A stretch of 64,000 nucleotides of DNA, from contig NZ_CP020538.1 in the NCBI RefSeq assembly GCF_002080435.1, positions 1,550,001-1,614,000 of the forward strand. The letters are read 5' to 3'. Positions 55,320 through 58,910 of the stretch are shown piece by piece. Both the position numbers and the translations under genes were made by a program. This DNA comes from Sphingobium herbicidovorans (GTDB lineage: Bacteria; Pseudomonadota; Alphaproteobacteria; Sphingomonadales; Sphingomonadaceae). Position 1 is the first letter of the stretch. Every line of letters begins with the position of its first letter. The notes beneath the pieces were generated by a model, which saw only the letters and a program-made list of their open reading frames with translations, was not told where the DNA came from and did not search any database.

Positions 55320-56174
55320 TCAGGCGGAAGCAACACTCACGCGGACATCCATATCGATAAAATCTTCGGCCGCACCGATAAAGCCGCCCGCGACCGGCAT
55401 GATCTGCTTGTTGCACCGGCCGGCCGCCACGGCGATGAGGTTGGCCGAACCAACGCGCCGGTGCGTCGGATCAAACGCGATCCAGCCCGCCGAAGGAAGA
55501 TAGACCTCCGCCCAAGCATGGGTCGATCCCGGATCGGACGCGGGCTGATCGGGATCATATAGATAGCCCGACACCGCGCGGGCGCCAAAGCCCAGATGAC
55601 GAACCGCATCGATGAACAGGGCCGCCATGTCCCTGCATGAGCCGCTCCCAAGGGACAGGGTTTCCAGTGGCGCCTGCGTTCCGGCCTCGTCCCGAACCCG
55701 GTAGGCGATAGCATCCCCTATCCCTGTGTTGACGTCCTTGAGCAGAGACAGGGTGTCGGTGCCCGTCCCGTACACAAAGCCCTGGACCCATTGATCGAAT
55801 TTCCCGCCGTCGTCGGGATAGTGGGTTTTCATGTGCGCGCCGAGATCGGCGATTTCTTCGTCCGAATATCGGAATGGATAGGAATGAGCGACCGGGGCGA
55901 TCCGGAATACTGGCCAGGCCGGCGCATGTTGCTCGACCAGGATATCGGTGGAAATGCAAAGCTGGCTCGTACGCTCCGAAAAGTGGGCGGAGGCGACCAG
56001 ATTGCCGAAAACGTCCTGCGTCCATTCCACCTCTGCATGCGGGGCGATACGAACCGAGTTCGACAAAATCCGCAGATCATGGGAATTGCGCGGCATGAGC
56101 ATGAGCCGATGCGTTTCCAGTTCAACCGGGTTCCGGTAGCGATAAGTCGTGTCATGACGGATGCGAAGTTTCAT
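55320..56174 (-). CDS. Transglutaminase-like cysteine protease family protein
   Basis: A 284-residue protein with an N-terminal beta domain (MKLRIRHDTTYRYRNPVELE) and a transglutaminase-like core. The triad is visible: SGSCRDMAALFIDAVRHLGF (Cys), STHAWAEVYLPSAGWIAFDP (His and Asp). This bacterial group is thought to hydrolyse or transfer amide bonds; no signal peptide is evident. It is separated from the nucleotidyltransferase gene upstream by about 100 bp, and could be read with it, though functional linkage is only a possibility. Confidence 0.9.
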   Translation of the reverse strand: MKLRIRHDTTYRYRNPVELETHRLMLMPRNSHDLRILSNSVRIAPHAEVEWTQDVFGNLVASAHFSERTSQLCISTDILVEQHAPAWPVFRIAPVAHSYPFRYSDEEIADLGAHMKTHYPDDGGKFDQWVQGFVYGTGTDTLSLLKDVNTGIGDAIAYRVRDEAGTQAPLETLSLGSGSCRDMAALFIDAVRHLGFGARAVSGYLYDPDQPASDPGSTHAWAEVYLPSAGWIAFDPTHRRVGSANLIAVAAGRCNKQIMPVAGGFIGAAEDFIDMDVRVSVASA

Positions 56175-56270: not shown

Positions 56271-57377
56271 TCAAATCTTGCCCAGTTCATTGCGCAGGAA
56301 CAGCCGCTCGACACTCTCGCGCCGGGGCAGGCCCGCGCCTGCCATGGGGCCTGCCCTGCCCTGCCGTCGCGCCGCGCGTCTCGCTGAAAGATAACAGGGG
56401 TCCAGCAACGACAGCAGCGTCAGAAATGGCGCCATTCCCGGCCATCTCAGCTGGATCAGCCGCCGTCGATATTGCAGCCGTGGCCGGACGCCGCGCGTCA
56501 TCGTTCGGGGCACGGTCATGCCCAGCAATCTGGATGCCGTCAGCAGTTGGGTGCGCATCGCGTTGCGCGCATAGGCCGATGCGAACAGGCGGTTGAGTTC
56601 CGCCCAGTCCGCTTCCCCAAAGCCGGCGGCGAACGATTTGATGTCGACAAGATGGCGCAGGTCGATCCGGCCCCGCAGATAATCACGGCCCTTGAGCTGG
56701 TCATGGAGCAGCAGGATCGCGGTGCAAGCGACCGGAGACGGCAGCAAGACCCTGCTGCCGGGCAGTGCCACTTCGGTCGCGCTCTCCGCCAGGTCATCGA
56801 AAAGATAGAATAGCGTGCTGACGCTGCCATATTCGCAATGAAGGTCGATCGTCGCCGCATCCTGCGGTCGCGACAGGACTGCCGGAACGCCCGGCTGAAC
56901 GACTGGCGCTTCAAGGCGATAGCCTATGCTGCACAACTGGTCGATCACATCGCCGAAGCGGTCGGCCGCGACCATCAGGTCGATGTCGGCCAGCATCCGC
57001 GCCGATCGATCCTGCGGCGGCGCATGGGCGAGCCATGCCGTGCCCTTCAACAATAACGGACGAACGTCATGGGCGTTCATGACGCCCGCCGCCTCATCGA
57101 GCTGGCTCAGCAGGCGCTCGTTACGCTCGGCATTGCGCCTTTCCATCTCGGTGAGGAATATGCGGACGTCGGCGGGCAGTTCGGCCAGCCGCCCGGCATT
57201 GTTCAACCGGGCAGAGACAGTGGGGCTGCACAGCGACTTGTTGGCCAGTCCGATGATGGCCGACCAATCAGCGGCAGCAGGCAAGTCTCCGCGCAGGCAG
57301 GCGAGCAGGCCATGAAGAGGATCAAGCCGGGCCACAAAATGTACCCAGCAACGCCGCCGCCTCGTCCAGATCGTCAT
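56271..57377 (-). CDS. Nucleotidyltransferase family protein (PF14907-like)
   Basis: A protein of about 354-368 residues. Its core matches the uncharacterised nucleotidyltransferase group found beside HprK-related kinases: VRPLLLKGTAWLAHAPPQDR, then ARMLADIDLMVAADRFGDVI with the D-x-D metal site, and TIDLHCEYGSVSTLFYLFDD. The C-terminal part is helical. The frame begins 56 bp inside the PqqD-HprK gene; GTG 57334 (ARLDPLHGLLACL) gives a smaller overlap and may be the true start. The tight overlap means the two products are made together. It may activate or nucleotidylate a peptide or sugar; substrate unknown. Confidence 0.8.
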   Translation of the reverse strand: MTIWTRRRRCWVHFVARLDPLHGLLACLRGDLPAAADWSAIIGLANKSLCSPTVSARLNNAGRLAELPADVRIFLTEMERRNAERNERLLSQLDEAAGVMNAHDVRPLLLKGTAWLAHAPPQDRSARMLADIDLMVAADRFGDVIDQLCSIGYRLEAPVVQPGVPAVLSRPQDAATIDLHCEYGSVSTLFYLFDDLAESATEVALPGSRVLLPSPVACTAILLLHDQLKGRDYLRGRIDLRHLVDIKSFAAGFGEADWAELNRLFASAYARNAMRTQLLTASRLLGMTVPRTMTRGVRPRLQYRRRLIQLRWPGMAPFLTLLSLLDPCYLSARRAARRQGRAGPMAGAGLPRRESVERLFLRNELGKI

Positions 57378-58422
57378 AATGCAGTTCGCAGCTTCGCGCC
57401 GCGCTGACGGCGCCCATCAACGCGTCCAGCGCCGAGCGATCCGCCTCGCCGCTGGCCGACGCCGCTTCGGACAGAAGATGCCTGATAATCGCCATCGGTT
57501 GCTGGGCCGTCAGTTGCGCGCGCGCGCCCTTCCTCCGCCGCAGCTTGACGATCCAGCCGACCGGCAGCGGCCTCTGGTCCACGGGGGTCGACAAGCCAAG
57601 GTAGCGCACCCGCCGACCGTCGGGACGCCAATGGATCATGGGTTGAAGACGCCCCGGATAGCGCGATGCCATCATCGGCCACGCGCCCGACTTCACCGTG
57701 GGCAGGAAGGGCAGGCCCTGGACCCGGCCGTCGCGGTCCAGCATGGCGATGTCGTCGCCATGATAGACGAAATCGCCTTTCAGCAGCCAGGATGTCAGCG
57801 TCGTCTTGCCCGCGCCCGGATGGCCCGTCAGCAGCAGCATTTGGCCGTTGCGGCTCACGCAGCCCGCATGAAGCGCCAGGCTCCAGCGCCTGTCCTGGAT
57901 GACGTCCTGGATGATCTGCGCCTTGACGATCGTTCCGGCCTGGTTGAGTTGCAGCACGGACGCATGGCCTGCATCGCGGCTGAACAGGCACAGGCCGTGG
58001 GTGGACCAGAGATGATAGACATTATCGACCGGCTCATGCGGCCGCTCCGCTTGCAGATGCGTGAAAAGCGGGGCGACATGATCGACCAACGCCTGATCAT
58101 GGTAGCGCAGCGCGACGCTCCGCCCACCGATTGACACGGACTGGAGCAGGATAGGATCGGAGGCAGGCGGCCGGTCGGTGGCATGCACCAGTCCCGATTG
58201 GGACCAGTCCGCCAATACAGCCTGGAGCATCGCCGAGGCGGGGGTGAAACCGCGCTCGACAACCTCCTGCGCAAGCTGGGGCAGGCTGACGCCATCTTCC
58301 AGGCGGCATCCGATATAGCCGGCGATCTGGTTCAACTCGAAAAGGGCATGACGGGACCGGGAGATGATCACCGGCTGATCGTCGATGAACGTCATCGAGG
58401 TGCCAGGCGTCAGACGCAACAT
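57322..58422 (-). CDS. PqqD-like domain fused to an HprK-like kinase
   Basis: A 366-residue protein. The N-terminal 80 residues look like a PqqD-type peptide-recognition domain (HALFELNQIAGYIGCRLEDG and SLPQLAQEVVERGF). The rest resembles the HPr kinase fold: P-loop LLLTGHPGAGKTTLTSWLLK, then GDFVYHGDDIAMLDRDGRVQ (acidic motif), as in HprK-related kinase A of HPr-rel-A type clusters. Real HprK phosphorylates HPr; relatives in peptide clusters phosphorylate peptides. ATG 58422 was chosen; the frame is open to 58452. The gene lies between the small peptide gene and the nucleotidyltransferase. Confidence 0.82.
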   Translation of the reverse strand: MLRLTPGTSMTFIDDQPVIISRSRHALFELNQIAGYIGCRLEDGVSLPQLAQEVVERGFTPASAMLQAVLADWSQSGLVHATDRPPASDPILLQSVSIGGRSVALRYHDQALVDHVAPLFTHLQAERPHEPVDNVYHLWSTHGLCLFSRDAGHASVLQLNQAGTIVKAQIIQDVIQDRRWSLALHAGCVSRNGQMLLLTGHPGAGKTTLTSWLLKGDFVYHGDDIAMLDRDGRVQGLPFLPTVKSGAWPMMASRYPGRLQPMIHWRPDGRRVRYLGLSTPVDQRPLPVGWIVKLRRRKGARAQLTAQQPMAIIRHLLSEAASASGEADRSALDALMGAVSAARSCELHYDDLDEAAALLGTFCGPA

Positions 58423-58484
58423 CGGACAAGCCCCGTTACGAGAGCCGCGCACGCTTCCGCTTCGCCGTTGAAGCCCAGCTTAGT

Positions 58485-58763
58485 TCACCCGCCCTTGTTG
58501 CCGGGACTGCCGGGGCCAGTGCCGGGTCCGTCATTGATCGGGGGGTTGCCGGGAGGCTGCGGGTCCAGCCCGTTGCCTACCCCGTTATTGCCCTTGGGCC
58601 CGCCGCCACCGCCGCCGGCCGACGCCGCGATCGCTGCGGAGGACAGGGACGTGGACAGCATGATCGTCATCGCGGGCGGAACAGTCGCAGCGAAACGGCC
58701 GCAGCTTTTCAGGAAGCGACGCCGGTCTTCGACCGCGGACAGAATGGCAGGTTCCTCAGACAA
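58485..58763 (-). CDS. Small Tat-signal protein with Gly/Asn/Pro-rich tail, candidate modified peptide
   Basis: A 92-residue protein starting at TTG 58763 after GAGGAGG, a strong binding site. It has a twin-arginine-like signal (DRRRFLKSCGRFAATVPPAM) and a hydrophobic stretch to about residue 48. The tail is low complexity: six Gly, then GPKGNNGVGNGLDPQPPGNP, PINDGPGTGPGSPGNKGG. No other coding option is plausible. It is first in the cluster with the PqqD-HprK fusion and nucleotidyltransferase, so it may be their substrate. The role is inferred from position only. Confidence 0.75.
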   Translation of the reverse strand: MSEEPAILSAVEDRRRFLKSCGRFAATVPPAMTIMLSTSLSSAAIAASAGGGGGGPKGNNGVGNGLDPQPPGNPPINDGPGTGPGSPGNKGG

Positions 58764-58910
58764 GGGTAGCCTCCTCTTTTCAGGGTTGGCTCAAGCTACC
58801 ACCGACTCCGCTACCAGCGCATTGCTATGGGGGAGTATATCACAAGGTATAAGAGGGAAACGGGCCAGCATCAGCGTCACCGCCGCGCCGGCCCGTCGCC
58901 TTGTCAGCGG

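Follow-up and report, generated by a model that had tools for sequence, protein, structure and literature searches.

Several described systems come close to the locus reported here. In lasso peptide clusters, as the accessible part of PMC8498205 describes, an HPr-kinase homologue phosphorylates a Ser of the peptide, and in the case of pseudomycoidin a nucleotidyltransferase then adds a hexose to the phosphate; that is to say, kinase and nucleotidyltransferase jointly decorate peptides in these clusters. The bufferins are MNIO-modified RiPPs whose Sec signal peptide is thought to help enzyme recognition, and in the accessible part of PMC12452194 the presence of a signal peptide on a RiPP precursor is described by the authors as an original feature. 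In addition, NCBIfam names the HPr-rel-A system, with the kinase TIGR04352 and the PqqD family chaperone TIGR04353, and the entries and literature examined nowhere state its target or function. Among titles and abstract openings of the open-licence literature, no paper describing a precursor, fusion and transferase trio was found, and a term search of the accessible parts of RRE surveys found no mention of kinase, HPr, nucleotidyltransferase or twin-arginine.

The window, i.e., the whole stretch of 64,000 nucleotides that was analysed, carries on its minus strand a tight cassette transcribed in the order small protein (58763–58485), RRE/PqqD–kinase fusion (58422–57322) and transferase (57335–56271). 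All three ORFs are present, so the three-gene set of the original prediction is real, and the co-occurrence counts across genomes given below place its arrangement beyond chance. The cassette has no gene for a lasso cyclase, a radical SAM enzyme or a transporter, which bears out the proposal that it represents a distinct system.

The small protein (92 aa) consists of a Tat-type leader and a Gly/Pro/Asn-rich tail ending in Gly, and is the probable substrate. It begins at a TTG start, 6 bases 5′ of which lies the ribosome-binding site AGGAGG (58770..58775, minus strand). An RRRFLK motif, a hydrophobic stretch and an AIA cleavage-type site can be recognized in it by sequence rather than by a signal predictor. 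The conserved leader, residues 12–51 (58611..58730, minus strand), corresponds to the 40 positions of model A3, and the leader model matches the protein strongly, at 89.1 bits. In the Tat consensus, Ser or Thr usually stands before RR, whereas this position is mostly Asp in the 103 unique leaders, so that Tat targeting is uncertain. A search with the small-protein alignment (E up to 0.01) collected 2386 proteins; none of the 120 matches listed carries a Pfam label, and the named ones among them are called hypothetical or uncharacterized. The possibility that the tail is common to other proteins was rejected, because, as a query in 79 genomes of the family (the leader-bearing ones there being G000 and G073), it matched only itself.

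The fusion is a 366-aa protein (57322..58422, minus strand), assigned as such by profile, fold and conservation evidence, and its closest named relatives are from Sphingobium. The full ORF spans 57322–58452, and the start was set at the ATG at 58422 as the likelier one, since many relatives start at MLRL. The original prediction of a PqqD–HprK fusion stands in its kinase half through the predicted fold and in its PqqD half through the family profile: Pfam PqqD matches the window's protein weakly and below threshold (E 0.22), and the fusion-family profile matches the lasso RRE proteins TfuB1 (E 1.6e-7) and TbiB1 (E 8.2e-7) in the PDB. The RRE/PqqD domain covers about residues 1–90 (58153..58422, minus strand), and its assignment rests on sequence, since the fold comparison mainly covers residues 67–366. 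The kinase part of the family has a predicted fold like that of HPr kinase/PEP carboxykinase, the latter being among the fold matches. Its P-loop GHPGAGKTT lies at residues 200–208 (57799..57825, minus strand), and this loop together with H185, D223 and D224 is invariant in 61 sequences; we take H185 and D223 to correspond to catalytic residues of HPr kinase. Several relatives of the fusion (P0009 and others up to P0081) carry the precomputed label PF27840 (PF27840.1), which is absent from the Pfam scan of the window's fusion; part of the fusion may therefore already belong to a recent family entry.

The third gene encodes an NTP_transf_5 protein with a nucleotidyltransferase fold (354 aa; PF14907, E 1.5e-30). 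Its start is probably the GTG at 57335, which gives a 14-bp overlap with the fusion gene, as in L040, the nearest relative read. LKG and DxD motifs are conserved, and the structure was predicted with a pLDDT of 85.7. A PDB sequence search found nothing, and the Foldseek matches are weak (best E 1e-3, to ANT(2'')-Ia; FKRP 0.08), including antibiotic- and sugar-phosphate-modifying nucleotidyltransferases. The transglutaminase-like gene next to the cassette (55320–56174; PF08379 and PF01841) is real, but it is not conserved with the cassette: among 33 full-length fusion loci it occurs beside one, the window itself, and the proposed role as a further partner was therefore dropped. L047 contains a weak relative of it, at a distance of about 5 kb from a different kinase. 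A defence system was also considered and rejected, the best PADLOC match having E 0.028.

The neighbourhood survey that had been suggested as a check was carried out on the same 33 loci, which include Sphingomonadales, Rhizobiales (Ensifer, Sinorhizobium and Mesorhizobium), Inquilinus and Rhodobacterales. A leader gene adjoins 27 of them and a transferase 30, the latter counted only where it is encoded on the same strand as the fusion, which leaves out the opposite-strand transferase of L143. The leader model was partly built from these loci; at plasmid loci outside it, a leader gene was present in 8/8 (two of them S. meliloti, and some with close relatives in the model), and at the new fusions of the phylum search, likewise outside it, in 3/3 (L158–L160). 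Among the six fusions without an adjoining leader gene, the genomes of L046 and L112 carry leader genes at other places and that of L143 only weak leader-like ones, L142 stops at a contig edge, L144 is without a leader gene, and L049 has another Tat-type protein. Two arrangements of related leaders were seen in passing. At L105 (7427–8338, G375:C61), three tandem small proteins combine a related leader with Cys-rich tails (CEPCSTCTPCD), the fusion of G375 lying on a different contig. At L051 (9457–9744, G273:C55), a window-type leader gene and an HPr-rel-A-type kinase locus are about 1 kb apart, and G273 also has a fusion cassette on another contig.

Across genomes, leader and fusion occur together. 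Of the 298 genomes surveyed in the window's family, 9 have the full-length fusion and 8 have a strong leader (at least 80 bits), each of these 8 being among the 9 (Fisher 6e-15); no strong leader gene was found in the family genomes without the fusion. In the ninth, G257, a weaker leader match of 44 bits lies where another contig ends. A tenth, remote fusion in G220 (L049; 113 bits) was matched by the family model only and has the different Tat-type protein mentioned above alongside. In the class survey of 385 genomes, a leader match occurs in 8/9 fusion genomes versus 4/376 others, the match in G375 being weak and one of the four fusion-less matches having an internal stop; clear leader genes are present in G410 and G418, in which the search found no fusion. 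Full-length fusions in this count are those above 180 bits that start at model position 12 or lower (20 for G641), so that G528 (143.7 bits) and G522 (87.3 bits) were left out. In G663 and G215 the fusion is split over contigs. In the phylum sample of 249 genomes, fusions above 300 bits are found only within the same class as the window; a possible fusion outside the class (G822, L162; 135.6 bits) has a transferase, and the leader gene is absent from its stretch. As for the concern that the enzymes might regularly occur without the small protein, they mostly do not: one of the nine fusion genomes is without a strong leader in the family, and one of nine is without any in the class. The converse concern, a small protein spread over many genomes lacking the enzymes, finds no case with a strong leader in the family and a few in the class. 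This co-occurrence, with the leader gene beside most fusions, upholds the small protein as the probable substrate.

Conservation differs sharply between the two parts of the small protein. In the 103 unique leaders, R3, R4, F6, G11, P18, P19, T22, L25 and S26 are invariant, which exceeds what an RR motif and hydrophobicity would demand. The tails, in contrast, are low-complexity and diverse, with unrelated kinds between groups: GNNGVGNGxDPQPPGNPPINDGPGT in sphingomonads (well conserved among the sphingomonad-type proteins listed), GNGWGDKNHIHVGPPG in Mesorhizobium, RPGRPGRPG in Inquilinus and KKKKRKKKRRGRKRRRNRT in Leisingera. The window's genome itself encodes three leader proteins, two of them far from the cassette, and their leaders are 72–88% identical, their tails 38–41%. 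A nearly invariant leader combined with differing tails and, in some genomes, with further leader genes distant from the enzymes is the signature of a modification guided by the leader and directed at several substrates. Moreover, in 142 distinct proteins with a gap-free leader alignment and RR in register, the position two past the predicted AxA site holds Ser 135 times, Thr 6 times and Ala once, and in two proteins this residue is the sole hydroxyl residue of the mature part. On both grounds it is our best guess, from sequence, for the phosphoacceptor; in the window it would be Ser48 (codon 58620..58622, minus strand), the second residue past the AIA site. Its conservation may instead serve export.

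Taken together, we consider it fairly probable that the cassette is a leader-guided protein-modification system for Tat-exported substrates. The small protein would be made with a Tat-type leader that doubles as a recognition sequence; the RRE/PqqD domain of the fusion would bind this leader in the cytoplasm and present the segment behind it, and the HprK/PEPCK-like kinase would phosphorylate a hydroxyl, most plausibly that of the near-invariant Ser/Thr. The NTP_transf_5 protein would then add a group to the phosphate, by analogy with pseudomycoidin a hexose, or else a nucleotidyl or sugar-phosphate group, and the finished protein would be exported by Tat and cleaved. A single set of enzymes would act on several substrates, part of which are encoded at other places in the genome. 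Gene linkage, the contrast in conservation and the predicted folds are observations; leader binding, the chemistry and its site, the transferred group, export and the biological role are what we infer from them, phosphorylation and capping of the leader-bound protein before export by analogy with the lasso kinases and pseudomycoidin. Tat, unlike Sec, accepts folded proteins, a property that would suit a modification before export.

The same observations can be read in other ways. The leader could be an unusual Tat or membrane signal and the small protein a periplasmic partner, with the enzymes acting on another molecule such as a sugar, a lipid or a metabolite. PEP carboxykinase and the antibiotic- and sugar-phosphate-modifying nucleotidyltransferases among the fold matches are indeed small-molecule enzymes, and at L153 and L154, on Rhodobacterales plasmids, the cassette lies close to polysaccharide or lipopolysaccharide biosynthesis/export genes; but RREs bind leader peptides and here one is fused to the kinase, the conservation of the leader reaches beyond RR motif and hydrophobicity, and in leader genes remote from the cassette the leader is retained but the tail is not. 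We regard this reading as unlikely, if the most serious of the alternatives. It is less likely still that the leader is the working part, e.g., a membrane-anchored sensor or inhibitor controlling the kinase, and the tail mere filler. The diversity of the low-complexity tails would fit such a role, as would the Tat-type partner at L049, which has about 3 residues past its putative cleavage site, while the sphingomonad-type tail is well conserved, as one would expect if the product were functional.

A decayed or rearranged lasso-peptide cluster, in which kinase, RRE and nucleotidyltransferase were left without cyclase and protease, is disfavoured and seems very improbable. RRE, HprK-like kinase and nucleotidyltransferase are all found in lasso clusters in the accessible part of PMC8498205, and the window's genome does encode, 1.4 Mb from the cassette, a B2 protein of the lasso type (NF033537) next to a cyclase-like gene that scores below cut-off; behind these lie genes which, judged by eye, resemble isopeptidase and TonB receptor genes (L141 6582–13960; G000:C1, about 159–166 kb). 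However, the three-gene set is kept across several alphaproteobacterial orders, so that it is not a remnant, and the precursor has a Tat-type leader and is without a C-terminal Ser.

The HPr-rel-A kinases of NCBIfam form a sister branch with a separate PqqD protein. The other kinase of the window's genome (L050, G000:C1:897000-913000) scores 234.2 bits to TIGR04352, and the separate PqqD of L052 scores 51.6 against a TIGR04353 cut-off of 35. Another Tat-type protein family lies within 4 kb of 83 of the 108 non-fusion kinase matches in the 298 genomes (a count that includes the second half of the split fusion of G215), and of its 89 matches scoring at least 69 bits, 84 are close to a kinase match. 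In the samples from family, class and phylum, 50/59 unfused kinase loci, or 49/58 distinct ones (L022 and L124 being the same locus), have a small ORF whose leader is Tat-like, versus 4/39 control segments (Fisher 1e-13 for the distinct loci), a comparison tuned after the fact, since the pattern was loosened once. The first pattern, with a 14-residue hydrophobic window, had given 0/19, 10/20 and 11/20 loci and 3/39 controls and missed Tat-type proteins already seen; the loosened one gave 18/19, 15/20 and 17/20. The second ORFs matched in L119, L134, L163, L165 and L175 look spurious, as does the match in L131, where the first pattern shows a convincing one. These loci are top-ranked kinase matches, several of one genus, rather than a random sample, and the controls were other parts of alphaproteobacterial loci and of the window. 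Transferase-like ORFs, by our own narrow model, occur at 43/59 unfused loci (42/58 distinct), and Ser/Gly-rich repeat tails at several (L126, L128, L129, L130 and L135). The Tat-type proteins that were scanned had no NCBIfam match at E up to 0.01, and no Pfam match save sub-threshold ones to one long tail. In addition, phosphate-uptake genes stand beside the HPr-rel-A genes and their Tat-type protein in L050 (PhoR-, PstS-, PstC- and PstA-like), L052 (PstB and PstA), L053 (PstB) and, by eye, L051, a hint that the sister system may be tied to phosphate supply.

On this basis we tentatively put forward, as a possibility somewhat short of probable, a large, as yet undescribed class of ribosomally made products in Pseudomonadota, in which proteins with Tat leaders and variable, often Gly/Ser-rich tails would be modified while in the cytoplasm by an RRE-guided HprK/PEPCK-type kinase, often with a nucleotidyltransferase-fold partner adding a phospho-sugar or nucleotidyl cap, and then exported. 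The leader would be a transferable tag through which one enzyme set reaches several substrates whose genes are scattered over the genome, and HPr-rel-A would be one branch, targeting its own Tat-type protein. If true, enzyme families that are named but uncharacterised would gain a target and a mechanism, leader-guided peptide modification would be extended by kinase chemistry and Tat export, and other cargo might be marked with the leader tag. The idea can be tested directly, since the cassette is present in two strains (USDA1021 and Ak57) of S. meliloti, a species with good genetics.

Compared with known systems, the cassette shares with HPr-rel-A an HprK-related kinase, a PqqD domain, NTP_transf_5 and a Tat-type protein alongside, but its kinase falls far below the cut-off of TIGR04352 HprK_rel_A (49.7 of 200 bits), its PqqD part is fused rather than separate, with no TIGR04353 match in the NCBIfam scan of the fusion, and the HPr-rel-A Tat protein is of another family whose mature part is conserved. 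With the lasso kinases and the pseudomycoidin pair it shares an HPr-kinase homologue and a nucleotidyltransferase, and differs in its Tat-type leader; by eye, no lasso cyclase or B protease is found among the ORFs around it, and the C-terminal Ser that is the rule for lasso kinases occurs in 2/120 relatives of the small protein. As in RRE/RiPP-like systems, there is an RRE/PqqD domain and a nearby precursor with a conserved leader and a variable core, the tail being also conserved within the sphingomonad type. The bufferins likewise have a RiPP precursor with an export signal, but this is Sec and not Tat, an iron-dependent oxidative enzyme acts on Cys, and a kinase is unmentioned in the accessible part of PMC12452194. 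Finally, the fusion has the HPr kinase/PEPCK-type fold with its P-loop and conserved His and Asp, and is set apart from known members of this fold by an identity of about 12%, by the RRE in front and by a predicted peptide acceptor.
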